The position numbers and the translations under genes were made by a program. Under the pieces are notes generated by a model. That model ran no database searches, was not told the origin of the DNA, and saw only the letters and a list, made by a program, of their open reading frames with translations. Below are positions 35,619-39,825 of a stretch of DNA of 64,000 nt, one piece after another; position 1 is the stretch's first letter; every line of letters begins with the position of its first letter. Source of the stretch: Pseudomonas sp. B28(2017) (GTDB taxonomy: Bacteria; Pseudomonadota; Gammaproteobacteria; Pseudomonadales; Pseudomonadaceae); assembly GCF_002113025.1 (NCBI RefSeq), contig NZ_NEJH01000002.1, positions 868,001-932,000 of the forward strand, in the 5' to 3' direction.

Positions 35619-36680
<1,062 letters not shown>

Positions 36681-36739
36681 AGAGCATCAATCCGAGCAAG
36701 TCGCTGCTGTCATCATGGACAGCAGCCGGTCAAAATACC

Positions 36740-36763
36740 TATACATATAATTTGACTTGTACA
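36740..36763. promoter_or_regulatory. LitR/PplR operator box 1
   Basis: TATACA - N12 - TGTACA is an exact match to T(G/A)TACA-N12-TGTA(C/T)A, recalled as the binding site of class II LitR in P. putida. It overlaps the -35 element of the promoter at 36752-36779. It is the reverse complement arrangement of box 2, so the pair forms a large inverted repeat. Confidence 0.75.
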
Positions 36764-36779
36764 ACTTTGAATCTATGAT
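36752..36779 (+). promoter_or_regulatory. sigma70-type promoter of the DUF1722-merR-phrB operon
   Basis: TTGACT (36752-36757), a 16-bp spacer and TATGAT (36774-36779) make a strong predicted promoter. The -35 lies inside LitR box 1, and box 2 starts about 10 bp past the -10. Bound repressor would block polymerase on both sides. Confidence 0.7.
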
Positions 36780-36789
36780 GAAATTATCT

Positions 36790-36813
36790 TGTACAGACAC
36801 GAATGTTTGTATA
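36790..36813. promoter_or_regulatory. LitR/PplR operator box 2
   Basis: TGTACA - N12 - TGTATA is an exact match to the operator pattern. With box 1 it builds a 9-bp outer inverted repeat (ACCTATACA at 36737 and TGTATAGGT at 36808). The box-to-box gap is 26 bp. Confidence 0.75.
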
Positions 36814-36835
36814 GGTTCAGATTCGAGGTGCTCCG

Positions 36836-37423
36836 ATGCCCCACTCCCCCGCCAAACCGAAAATCGCTATCAGCGCCTGCCTGCTGCACACCGATTTGCC
36901 GGTGGAGGAAGACGGCCGACTCAAGGATCCGGTGCTGAGGGAAAACTTCCTCACTCGCGTACTCGCCTACAGCGCCTGGCAGCAGCTGTGCCAGGAAGGC
37001 CTGACCCGGCACGGTCTCACGGACTTTCACTCGCGCTATAAATACCTGCTGATGGCGCACAACCCGGCGCAATACAAAGTGCTCGGCAAGCTGCTGGGCA
37101 ACATGGGCCATACCGATCCGAAGGAACTTGGCGCGCGCTATTTCAGTGAACTGATGGCGGCACTGAAAAAGTGCGCCACCCGCGGTACCCATACCAATGT
37201 CCTGCAACACCTCAGTGGCCACCTGAAGCAGGCCATCAGCCGCGAAGACAAGCAGGAGGTGCAACACGTGATCAGCCAGTATCGCCTGGGCATCGTGCCG
37301 TTGGTGGTGCCATTGACACTGCTCAAGCATCACTTCCGCCAACACCCCGATCCGTACATCGCACAGCAGGTTTACCTGCAACCGCTCCCGGAAAACCTCA
37401 GCCTGCGAAACGCCATCCAATGA
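36836..37423 (+). CDS. DUF1722 protein with most of its DUF523 domain deleted
   Basis: A 195-residue protein. The first residues (KPKIAISACLL) are the classic opening of DUF523, but the sequence then runs at once into HTDLPVEEDGRLKDPVLRENF, the start of the DUF1722 (YbgA) domain. That domain is complete to the C-terminus (FHSRYKYLLMAHNP, RGTHTNVLQHLSGHLKQ). Homologues in this locus are, from memory, about 310-320 residues, so about 110-130 residues seem to have been removed in frame. GAGG seven bases before the ATG is a good ribosome-binding site. ATGA overlap links it to the MerR gene. Function of either domain is unknown; homologues sit with photolyase genes. Confidence 0.82.
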   Translation: MPHSPAKPKIAISACLLHTDLPVEEDGRLKDPVLRENFLTRVLAYSAWQQLCQEGLTRHGLTDFHSRYKYLLMAHNPAQYKVLGKLLGNMGHTDPKELGARYFSELMAALKKCATRGTHTNVLQHLSGHLKQAISREDKQEVQHVISQYRLGIVPLVVPLTLLKHHFRQHPDPYIAQQVYLQPLPENLSLRNAIQ

Positions 37424-38361
37424 AAAAAGCACCCGACACCAGCGCCTGCGATGGCCTCAGCGATGACTTTAACAAGGCGTTGGACGAAGGCTGGCTGCCG
37501 ATCCGTGAAGTGGCGCGGCAAACCGGCGTCAATGCCGTGACCTTGCGCGCCTGGGAGCGGCGTTACGGGCTGATCGTGCCGCAACGCACACCCAAGGGGC
37601 ACCGGTTGTTTTCGGCCGACCATGTCCAACGCATCCAGGCCATCCTCACCTGGCTCAACCGTGGCGTTGCCGTCAGCCAGGTCAAACAATTGCTCGACAC
37701 GCCGCAAGCCTTCAGCGAGTCCGTCGACAACGATTGGCACACTTTGCTGCAAACGTTGCTGCAGGCGGTCAGCGGATTGAAGGAACGCGCCCTGGATGAC
37801 AGCGTCAATCAGGCGATGGCGCTGTATCCGCCGCGAACCCTGTGCGAACAATTGCTGATGCCCCTGCTGGCCGCTCTGGAGCTACGCTGGCAAGGCCAGT
37901 TCGGTGCGCAGATGGAGCGGGTGTTTTTTTGTGCCTGGCTGCGCAGCAAGTTCGGCGCACGCATCTACCATAACAATCGTCAGTTGCGCAGCGCACCGCT
38001 GCTGTTAATCAACCACTCGGACCTGCCCACTGAGCCGAATCTGTGGCTCACGGCCTGGCTGATCAGCACTGCCGATTGCCCAGTGGAGGTCTTCGACGGG
38101 CCGCTGCCTGTCGGTGAACTGGCACTGGCGGTCGAACTGCTGCAACCCCGCGGGGTTCTGCTGTACTCCAGCAAGGCCATGAACCTGGCGCAACTGCCAA
38201 AACTTTTCAAAGGCATCAGTTGCCCAAAAATGATTGCCGGACCAACGGTATGCATCCACCACGCCGAGTTGTCCGCAAGTACTACCGAGATCGCTGACTT
38301 GTACCTCGCCGAAGATCCATTGTCGGCACATCAGTCACTCATTCAGCGCGGGCTGATTTAA
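37420..38361 (+). CDS. MerR-family regulator, class II LitR/PplR-like
   Basis: A 313-residue regulator. The winged-helix MerR domain is at about 25-95 (LPIREVARQTGVNAVTLRAWERRYGL, then TPKGHRLFSADHV). The C-terminal part follows the helix-bundle plus B12-domain layout of CarH/LitR (LLMPLLAALELRWQGQFG), but the EH pair after the Trp reads ER, and no DxHxxG cobalamin ligand motif can be found. This fits class II LitR such as P. putida PplR1, which do not sense light by adenosylcobalamin themselves. It overlaps the DUF1722 gene by ATGA and is followed without a gap by phrB. Probably represses its own operon through the boxes at 36740 and 36790. Confidence 0.85.
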   Translation: MKKAPDTSACDGLSDDFNKALDEGWLPIREVARQTGVNAVTLRAWERRYGLIVPQRTPKGHRLFSADHVQRIQAILTWLNRGVAVSQVKQLLDTPQAFSESVDNDWHTLLQTLLQAVSGLKERALDDSVNQAMALYPPRTLCEQLLMPLLAALELRWQGQFGAQMERVFFCAWLRSKFGARIYHNNRQLRSAPLLLINHSDLPTEPNLWLTAWLISTADCPVEVFDGPLPVGELALAVELLQPRGVLLYSSKAMNLAQLPKLFKGISCPKMIAGPTVCIHHAELSASTTEIADLYLAEDPLSAHQSLIQRGLI

Positions 38362-39825
38362 ATGAATCGCGTGGATACCAATATGCAATTGATCTGGTTG
38401 CGCAGCGACTTGCGCCTGCATGACAACACCGCCCTCTCGGCCGCCGCGACTCGCGGCCCGTGCGTGGCCGTGTATCTGCTGAGCCCGGAACAATGGCTGG
38501 AACATGATGACGCGCCCTGCAAAGTGGACTTCTGGCTGCGCAACCTGCGCGAGTTGAGCCGCGAACTGGGTCAACTGAACATTCCCCTGCTGGTCCGTCG
38601 TGCACCTCGCTGGGAGGACGCGCCAGCCGTGTTGCTGGATCTGTGCCGACAATGGCAGATCGACGCGGTGTACCTCAATGAAGAGTACGGCATCCATGAA
38701 ACCCGTCGCGATGCGGCGGTCGCCAGGACGCTCAGAGCCGAAGGCATCGAAGTTCACCGCTACCTCGATCAATTGCTGTTCAAGCCCGGGGGTGTGCTGA
38801 CCCGGACCGGCACTTACTTTCAGGTTTTCAGCCAGTTCCGCAAAGCCTGCTACGAACGCCTGCACCACTCGCTGCCCAGCCTGGTCCGCGCACCGCACAA
38901 GCAAGCACCACTGAACATTGCCAGCGATGCGATCCCCTTGAGTGTCGAGGGTTTTGCGACGCCCGGTGATAACCTGCGCAGCCTGTGGCCGGCGGGCGAA
39001 GCCCAAGCCCGGCAGCGCCTCGACAGCTTCAGCGATGCACAAATCGATCATTACCATAACGAGCGCGACTTCCCGGCAAAACCCGGCACCAGTCAGCTCT
39101 CGGCCTATCTCGCGGCCGGAGTGATTTCTCCCCGCCAATGCCTGCACGCCGCCTTGAACAGCAATCAGGGTGAGTTCGAAAGCGGCAAGACCGGCGCCGT
39201 CACCTGGATCAACGAACTGCTGTGGCGCGAGTTCTACAAACACATCCTGGTGGGCTACCCACGGGTGTCCCGGCACCGCGCGTTTCGCCCGGAAACCGAA
39301 GCTCTGGCCTGGCGCGATGCACCCGAAGAACTGGCTGCCTGGCAACAGGCACGTACCGGTTTGCCGATCATCGACGCGGCCATGCGCCAACTGCTGGCTA
39401 CCGGCTGGATGCACAACCGCCTGCGCATGGTGGTGGCGATGTTCTTGAGCAAAAACCTGTTGATCGACTGGCGCGAAGGCGAACGCTTTTTCATGCGTCA
39501 CCTGATCGATGGCGACCTGGCGGCGAACAATGGAGGCTGGCAGTGGAGTTCCTCCACCGGTACCGACTCGGCGCCTTACTTCCGGATTTTCAACCCGTTG
39601 AGCCAGTCGGAAAAATTCGATCCCGAGGGCCTGTTCATCAAGCGCTGGCTTCCGGAACTGGCCGGGCTGAATAAAAAAGACGTGCACAACCCGGCCAATC
39701 TCGGCGGCCTTTTCGGTGTAGTGGATTACCCCTCACCGATCGTCGACTTGAGTACTTCCCGTACGCGCGCGTTGACTGCATTCAAGAACCTGCCCTCACG
39801 ACAATACGCCGCCGTTGGGTCATGA
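38362..39825 (+). CDS. phrB: deoxyribodipyrimidine photolyase
   Basis: A 487-residue blue-light DNA repair enzyme that splits cyclobutane pyrimidine dimers. The N-terminal antenna domain begins MQLIWLRSDLRLHDNTALS. The FAD-binding domain has MHNRLRMVVAMFLSKNL and GGWQWSSSTGTDSAPYFRIFNP, with the usual Trp residues. The annotated ATG directly follows the MerR stop; a second in-frame ATG at 38383 fits the family start better and may be the real one. The stop overlaps the remnant gene at 39822 by ATGA. Confidence 0.95.
   Translation: MNRVDTNMQLIWLRSDLRLHDNTALSAAATRGPCVAVYLLSPEQWLEHDDAPCKVDFWLRNLRELSRELGQLNIPLLVRRAPRWEDAPAVLLDLCRQWQIDAVYLNEEYGIHETRRDAAVARTLRAEGIEVHRYLDQLLFKPGGVLTRTGTYFQVFSQFRKACYERLHHSLPSLVRAPHKQAPLNIASDAIPLSVEGFATPGDNLRSLWPAGEAQARQRLDSFSDAQIDHYHNERDFPAKPGTSQLSAYLAAGVISPRQCLHAALNSNQGEFESGKTGAVTWINELLWREFYKHILVGYPRVSRHRAFRPETEALAWRDAPEELAAWQQARTGLPIIDAAMRQLLATGWMHNRLRMVVAMFLSKNLLIDWREGERFFMRHLIDGDLAANNGGWQWSSSTGTDSAPYFRIFNPLSQSEKFDPEGLFIKRWLPELAGLNKKDVHNPANLGGLFGVVDYPSPIVDLSTSRTRALTAFKNLPSRQYAAVGS

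Follow-up and report, generated by a model that had tools for sequence, protein, structure and literature searches.

The 64,000-nucleotide stretch of DNA from Pseudomonas sp. B28(2017) analyzed here (the window) contains a three-gene operon that ends with a photolyase gene, and it raises the question of whether this operon is switched by light, and by which proteins. A preliminary description had placed two exact LitR/PplR boxes around a promoter and, behind it, an operon for a LitR-like MerR protein and phrB. This arrangement was borne out, and the operon and its control region comprise the following features:

36740-36763, plus strand: LitR/PplR box 1 (TATACA-N12-TGTACA), 0 mismatches, spanning the -35 hexamer; its position is kept in relatives, and it is laid out like Site 1 of the P6650 promoter of P. 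mendocina.
36752-36779, plus strand: sigma-70-type promoter TTGACT-N16-TATGAT, with the hexamers and the spacer of P6650.
36790-36813, plus strand: LitR/PplR box 2 (TGTACA-N12-TGTATA), 0 mismatches, just 3' of the expected transcription start and 50 bp from box 1.
36836-37423, plus strand: gene 1, a RudS remnant of 195 aa with DUF1722 only (PF08349, E 1e-42), TudS having been deleted in frame.
37420-38361, plus strand: gene 2, a class II LitR/PplR1-type MerR regulator of 313 aa, called LitR1 below (MerR_1 E 8e-18, B12-binding_2 E 7e-8, no PF02310).
38362-39825, plus strand: gene 3, phrB, a deoxyribodipyrimidine photolyase (PF03441 and PF00875; NF007955 at 531.7 bits, cut-off 506).

The three genes are contiguous, the ATG of litR1 at 37420 overlapping the stop of gene 1 (ATGA) and the ATG of phrB at 38362 lying directly 3' of the litR1 stop. 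In the promoter, the -35 hexamer TTGACT (36752-36757) is separated by a spacer of 16 from the -10 hexamer TATGAT (36774-36779), and this was the sole promoter-like match in 36600-36900 (mean of 0.2 in shuffled sequence). By analogy with the 48-bp leader of P6650, transcription would start at about 36788, 48 bp 5' of the ATG; with that start, box 1 on the -35 and box 2 just past the start reproduce the P6650 layout. The consensus T(G/A)TACA-N12-TGTA(C/T)A, which the preliminary description had ascribed to work on class II LitR of P. putida, is given in PMC9758184 as that of P. putida PplR1. Its only exact matches in the window were boxes 1 and 2, and 100 dinucleotide shuffles of the window gave none (mean 0, maximum 0). 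The whole-genome scan that had been suggested gave exact boxes at four places in the 5.93 Mb of this genome, boxes 1 and 2 included, and none with a reversed-pattern control. The third exact box (C24:375813) lies within a porin-type ORF, the identity of which was judged by eye. With one mismatch tolerated, 22 places were found genome-wide and 10 in the reversed-pattern control, so many of the one-mismatch sites would be due to chance. The fourth exact box, palindromic (TATACA-N12-TGTATA; C13:377644-377667, that is L001 1501-1524), lies, as judged by eye, within the 5' portion of an ORF for a response regulator and is perhaps upstream of its true start.

The two boxes had also been described as mirror images. 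This is formally true: TGTACA equals its own reverse complement, TATACA pairs with TGTATA, and the 9-bp inverted repeat made up of ACCTATACA (36737-36745) and TGTATAGGT (36808-36816) is perfect. The trait is not conserved, the mirrored outer half-sites (TATACA in box 1 with TGTATA in box 2) occurring in only 2 of 57 pairs, those of L024 and of the window itself.

The pair of boxes is conserved. The strict double-box pattern was present in 174 of the 298 sampled genomes of the genus and in none with the reversed control; the strict pair was missing in the other 124, some of which hold a degenerate pair (e.g., G277, G021, G232, and G246). Since this count uses the motif itself, loci were also fetched by protein similarity, and the pair proved to be conserved in these orthologous loci found independently of the motif: it was present in 29 of 30 fetched by similarity to the DUF1722 protein (own locus included). 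Among the named relatives, of which the best 80 of 309 were read, 77 had it (65 with 0 mismatches and 12 with one), and in the other three a degenerate pair could be made out by eye. Neither the pair nor such a promoter was found in the 3.5 kb of locus L044 (G088). The promoter TTGACT-N16-TATGAT accompanied 29 of 29 pairs among L038-L067, and TTGACT-N16-TATG[AC]T accompanied 74 of the 77 pairs among the best 80 named relatives; the -35 is partly built into these figures because the scans required TTGAC within box 1, but the -10 is not. In the same 77 pairs the spacing was 50 bp in 69 and 51 bp in 8, within an allowed range of 47-53. The 57-pair scan, in which 42-59 was allowed, gave 50 bp in 41 pairs; L007 and L016, from the set of 30 loci fetched by the pattern, are not among them because they have no TTGAC. 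Box 2 has one mismatch in L039 and L041, both of which share the gene 1 deletion of the window. The build of this blue-light switch is thus very fixed, with 49-52 bp between the boxes in the loci read and one promoter sequence.

The preliminary description had gone further and proposed a light-released autorepression loop, which raises the question of the light sensor. LitR1 can be classed as a class II LitR because it combines MerR_1 and B12-binding_2 with no PF02310 match in Pfam and no [DE]xHxxG motif anywhere in 37420-38361, and because its alignment with CarH, its best solved match, covers residues 21-176 only. The two histidines of the CarH WHRGEIGVAEEH stretch are absent from LitR1 in this alignment. 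A cobalamin-binding domain with its ligand histidine, by which CarH and the class I LitRs are recognized, was not found in LitR1, and the regulator encoded by the operon is probably no light sensor itself. The likely sensor, by analogy with the relatives, is a short LOV anti-repressor whose gene lies elsewhere in the genome, close to that of a second LitR:

C1:188260-189216: second LitR (LitR2), 38% identical to the LitR of the window.
C1:189886-190356: short LOV of 158 aa with the cysteine motif DCRFLQ, matching only PAS families in Pfam, near LitR2.

LitR2 matched only MerR families in Pfam (MerR_1 E 8e-16), with no B12-binding_2 match at 0.001. The LOV protein has a LOV domain with the cysteine, has no effector domain and is encoded near a LitR; it matches solved short LOVs of the Pseudomonas type (7yx0, E 1e-71; 3sw1, E 9e-51). 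The idea that this genome has no short LOV was dropped: a search for NCRFLQ was empty as the protein reads DCRFLQ, and a widened motif matched it. Between LitR2 and the LOV gene lies a 203-aa gene (L006 2407-3018) with no Pfam match, in the position of PME15565 in P. mendocina. In the 3.8 kb of the LitR2/LOV locus no box came closer to the consensus than two mismatches, which agrees with the report that pmlR2 and pmSB-LOV are expressed constantly in P. mendocina (PMC9758184).

Taken together, 36740-36813 very probably serves as the double operator for a sigma-70 promoter of the PplR/PmlR (class II LitR) regulon that is induced by blue light through a LOV protein. The sites, the promoter, the operon layout, their conservation and the presence of both LitRs and of the LOV gene were observed directly. 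For LitR binding, repression and release by light, we rely on published work on relatives. The P6650 promoter of P. mendocina has TTGACT-N16-TATGAT with Site 1 on the -35 and Site 2 past the transcription start but ahead of the ATG; a footprint over both sites was obtained with PmlR2, a class II LitR, with protection from +32 to -45 and from +37 to -54 (PMC9758184). In the same work, phrB was induced 27-33-fold by light and PmSB-LOV acted as a blue-light anti-repressor in SPR and run-off assays, although in gel shift, unlike in SPR, the LitR/LOV complex stayed on the DNA in the light. By this model, a class II LitR would sit on both boxes in the dark, and RNA polymerase would be excluded as occupancy of box 1 covers the -35 and occupancy of box 2 covers the start of the transcript. 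In blue light, the short LOV would form its flavin-cysteine adduct, bind the LitR and remove it from the DNA, and the operon for truncated RudS, LitR1 and photolyase would then be transcribed. The extra LitR1 made could help to re-close the promoter when darkness returns. As to the loop proposed in the preliminary description, the sites are very probably LitR/PplR operators of a photolyase operon induced by light, a promoter of like build having been footprinted in P. mendocina (PMC9758184), while the LitR of the operon is probably not what senses the light. Autorepression by that LitR is possible but unproven, since the P6650 footprint was made with PmlR2, and the pmlR2 gene is near the LOV gene like that of LitR2 here.

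One could argue instead that LitR1 is the sole occupant of both boxes and is itself light-sensitive in the B12 manner, making the LOV protein unnecessary. In its favor, litR1 sits in the operon that it would control and the boxes follow the PplR1 consensus, and genomes that have the pair but no strong short-LOV match also bear on it. There are 16 such genomes among the 174 with the strict pair. Over all 298 genomes, "no strong short LOV" means either no match (12 genomes) or a best E of 2.6e-16 to 1.2e-31 (24 genomes), the next best being 6e-49; the line was drawn by eye, on scores from no more than 12 candidates in each genome. Across the 298 genomes, strong short LOVs were present and absent in 158 and 16 genomes with the strict pair and in 104 and 20 genomes without it, which is not significant (Fisher p 0.07) in a comparison that is blunt because the strict pattern misses degenerate pairs. 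A search with LitR2 in 15 of the 16 (G223, 73% complete, was left out) returned a single match in each, at 35-41% identity, which is the level of the operon LitR. The same search in 21 LOV-positive genomes (own, four near relatives, and 16 more distant ones picked by hand) returned two LitR matches in all 21, the better one at 50-100%. LOV and LitR2 are thus present together or absent together in this sample, which supports them as partners. LitR1 and its operators can persist without either.

Eight of the LOV-less loci were read. In five, the pair precedes a complete RudS-LitR-photolyase operon, which speaks for LitR1 acting alone, and in three it precedes a lipid cluster. The outer half-site of box 1 is TCTACA in four of the five operons. 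Against a light-sensitive LitR1, the LitRs of these five operons have no B12 motif, and like LitR1 of the window they show B12-binding_2 but neither PF02310 nor [DE]xHxxG; the CarH alignment stops at residue 176 and misses the two histidines of WHRGEIGVAEEH; B12 is not required in P. putida (PMC9758184); and the genome under study has both a LOV protein and LitR2. We therefore regard sole control by a B12-type LitR1 as improbable and favor the LOV-released double operator. The term adenosyl-B12-dependent is applied to class II LitRs in PMC11417400, and the sequence of LitR1 in the window fits the view of PMC9758184 that B12 is not required, not that of PMC11417400. The fifteen genomes with the double operator and neither a strong short-LOV match nor a second LitR (L120-L124 and L133-L147), which are LitR1-only, offer a handle on what relieves repression when short LOV and LitR2 are missing.

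Possible further members of the regulon were indicated by the same motif or a variant of it, one of them in front of the operon:

35623-35646, plus strand: variant LitR box TATACC-N12-TGTACA, 1 mismatch to the consensus, before a FAD oxidoreductase gene.
35694-36680, plus strand: FAD-dependent amine-oxidase-like gene (PF01593), with an ATG at 35694 placed by conservation, 3' of the variant box.

The variant box was present in all 18 genomes examined (own included), nearly unchanged in 15 and with another spacer and the same ends in the three distant ones. It is the reverse complement of the site reported upstream of P. mendocina folM, TGTACA-N12-GGTATA (PMC9758184), and this match makes GGTATA worth considering as a half-site. 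The FAD gene at 35694-36680 is a possible second light-regulated unit. In G190, G127 and G259 the double box lies before SnoaL-like, SDR, amine-oxidase-like, DUF1365 and cyclopropane-synthase-like genes (identified with Pfam in G190 only), a cluster similar to that of ufaM in PMC9758184. The ufaM-like lipid-cluster loci L125, L126 and L127 have TAGGCT as the -10 in place of TATGAT. That the boxes belong to some other TGTACA-binding regulator, and only by coincidence look like PplR sites, is scarcely credible: TGTACA is a short palindrome usable by other regulators, but the N12 spacing, the boxes flanking a promoter with the P6650 hexamers, the conservation with the LitR-phrB operon and the same pair before the ufaM-like cluster in three genomes all speak against it.

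The first gene of the operon held a further feature, its truncated-RudS nature, of which the preliminary description made no mention. RudS is a tRNA 4-thiouridine desulfidase composed of TudS and DUF1722, encoded in P. putida by PP_0741, which lies in the LitR-photolyase operon (PMC11417400). The deletion in the window is located as follows:

36860-36898, plus strand: deletion junction region, residues KIAISACLLHTDL; 375 nt are absent with respect to intact relatives, between CTGCCTG repeats.

Intact relatives have 125 codons more, and the window joins KIAISACL to LHTDLPVEEDG. A search for PF04463 (TudS) in the genome matched only a stand-alone gene (C24:401532), not gene 1. In this strain the operon has a stand-alone DUF1722 protein in place of a tRNA desulfidase. 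The junction of the window is common to P. fluorescens C8, GM49 and GM48, the last two apparently being G232 and G246, which share the TudS deletion of the window strain. Other frame-keeping TudS deletions were found in P. lini DSM 16768, GM18, G083 and G129 (partial in GM18 and G129), which gives five different junctions in total, all with an open frame; the junctions read at the DNA level (window group, P. lini and GM18) are at 6-7-nt repeats by eye. At least five frames shorter than 300 aa were found among the 150 matches listed (292 genomes had a match). The TudS frame of L159 is broken, possibly by a sequencing error. Eight open frames of 637-655 aa had looked like RudS-LitR fusion proteins; a TAG stop lies between the genes in all eight, and the length reflects the ORF-reading convention.

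Whether G232 and G246 share a single deletion event with the window strain was addressed with trees. In a 12-row tree, the best tree needs two changes and the three deletion genomes came together in 2% of the bootstrap trees; G232 and G246 are sisters (99/99), and grouping them with the window strain was not rejected (p-AU 0.177). A 22-row tree was poorly resolved around the deletion genomes, and its group table was counted without 17 rows. The DUF1722 part that remains looks constrained: its dN/dS was 0.14-0.19 among the deletion genomes (three pairs) and 0.06-0.18 among four close relatives with an intact gene (six pairs), with the reservation that the pairwise values may include time before the deletion, which need not have a single origin. 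For litR the values were 0.24-0.28 in the deletion genomes and 0.12-0.17 in the intact relatives, so litR appears somewhat relaxed in the former.

A decaying pseudogene, with its frame kept only for translational coupling to litR through ATGA, would account for the lost catalytic domain, for the overlap of the gene 1 stop with the litR start and for the first cluster cysteine, which the stub of the window retains and which is changed in G246; the possible pre-deletion share in the dN/dS values would also suit it. We nevertheless find decay rather unlikely, given that DUF1722 dN/dS in the deletion pairs is close to that of intact pairs and that the frame is open at each of the five junctions. 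A tentative alternative, somewhat less likely than not, is that the DUF1722 half performs a separate light-regulated function, independent of the desulfidase; it may bind tRNA and shield or route 4-thiouridine tRNA under UVA. Alongside this, the LitR1-only genomes with the double operator might use a light input so far unrecognised. The natural TudS deletions are ready test cases for the role of DUF1722 without the desulfidase. A non-exhaustive search of the literature, PMC11417400 included, found no report of them; PMC11417400 does note DUF1722 proteins that stand alone, and it speculates about a split.

Among the closest known systems is that of P. mendocina NBRC 14162, whose P6650 shares with the window the two N12 boxes, the promoter hexamers, the placement of Sites 1 and 2 and a pmlR1-phrB region (PMC9758184). 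There too, the LOV gene is clustered with pmlR2 and a hypothetical gene at a separate locus, like LitR2, the small gene and LOV in this genome. The outer half-sites differ, being TATACA and TGTATA in the window and TGTACA in P6650, and gene 1 of the window has no TudS; PME6650 is termed hypothetical in PMC9758184, and we infer its identity as RudS from gene order. The PplR1-PplR3 regulon of P. putida KT2440 (Sumi et al. 2020, as described in PMC9758184) has the same consensus, and pplR1 and phrB are light-induced in it, with three PplRs and two short LOVs (PpSB1-LOV and PpSB2-LOV) where the genome studied here has two LitRs and one short LOV. With CarH and the class I LitR of Thermus (5c8d and 3whp), LitR1 shares an alignable MerR HTH and the helical region that follows, but unlike CarH it has no cobalamin-binding domain match and appears not to sense B12. 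The operator of the window is hence a further instance of a described system and the site itself is ordinary. Less ordinary is the loss of the enzyme domain in gene 1, which several relatives have also undergone by other deletions: where RudS PP_0741 combines DUF1722 with a catalytic TudS (PMC11417400), the window keeps DUF1722 and the place in the LitR-photolyase operon, and otherwise only an N-terminal stub.
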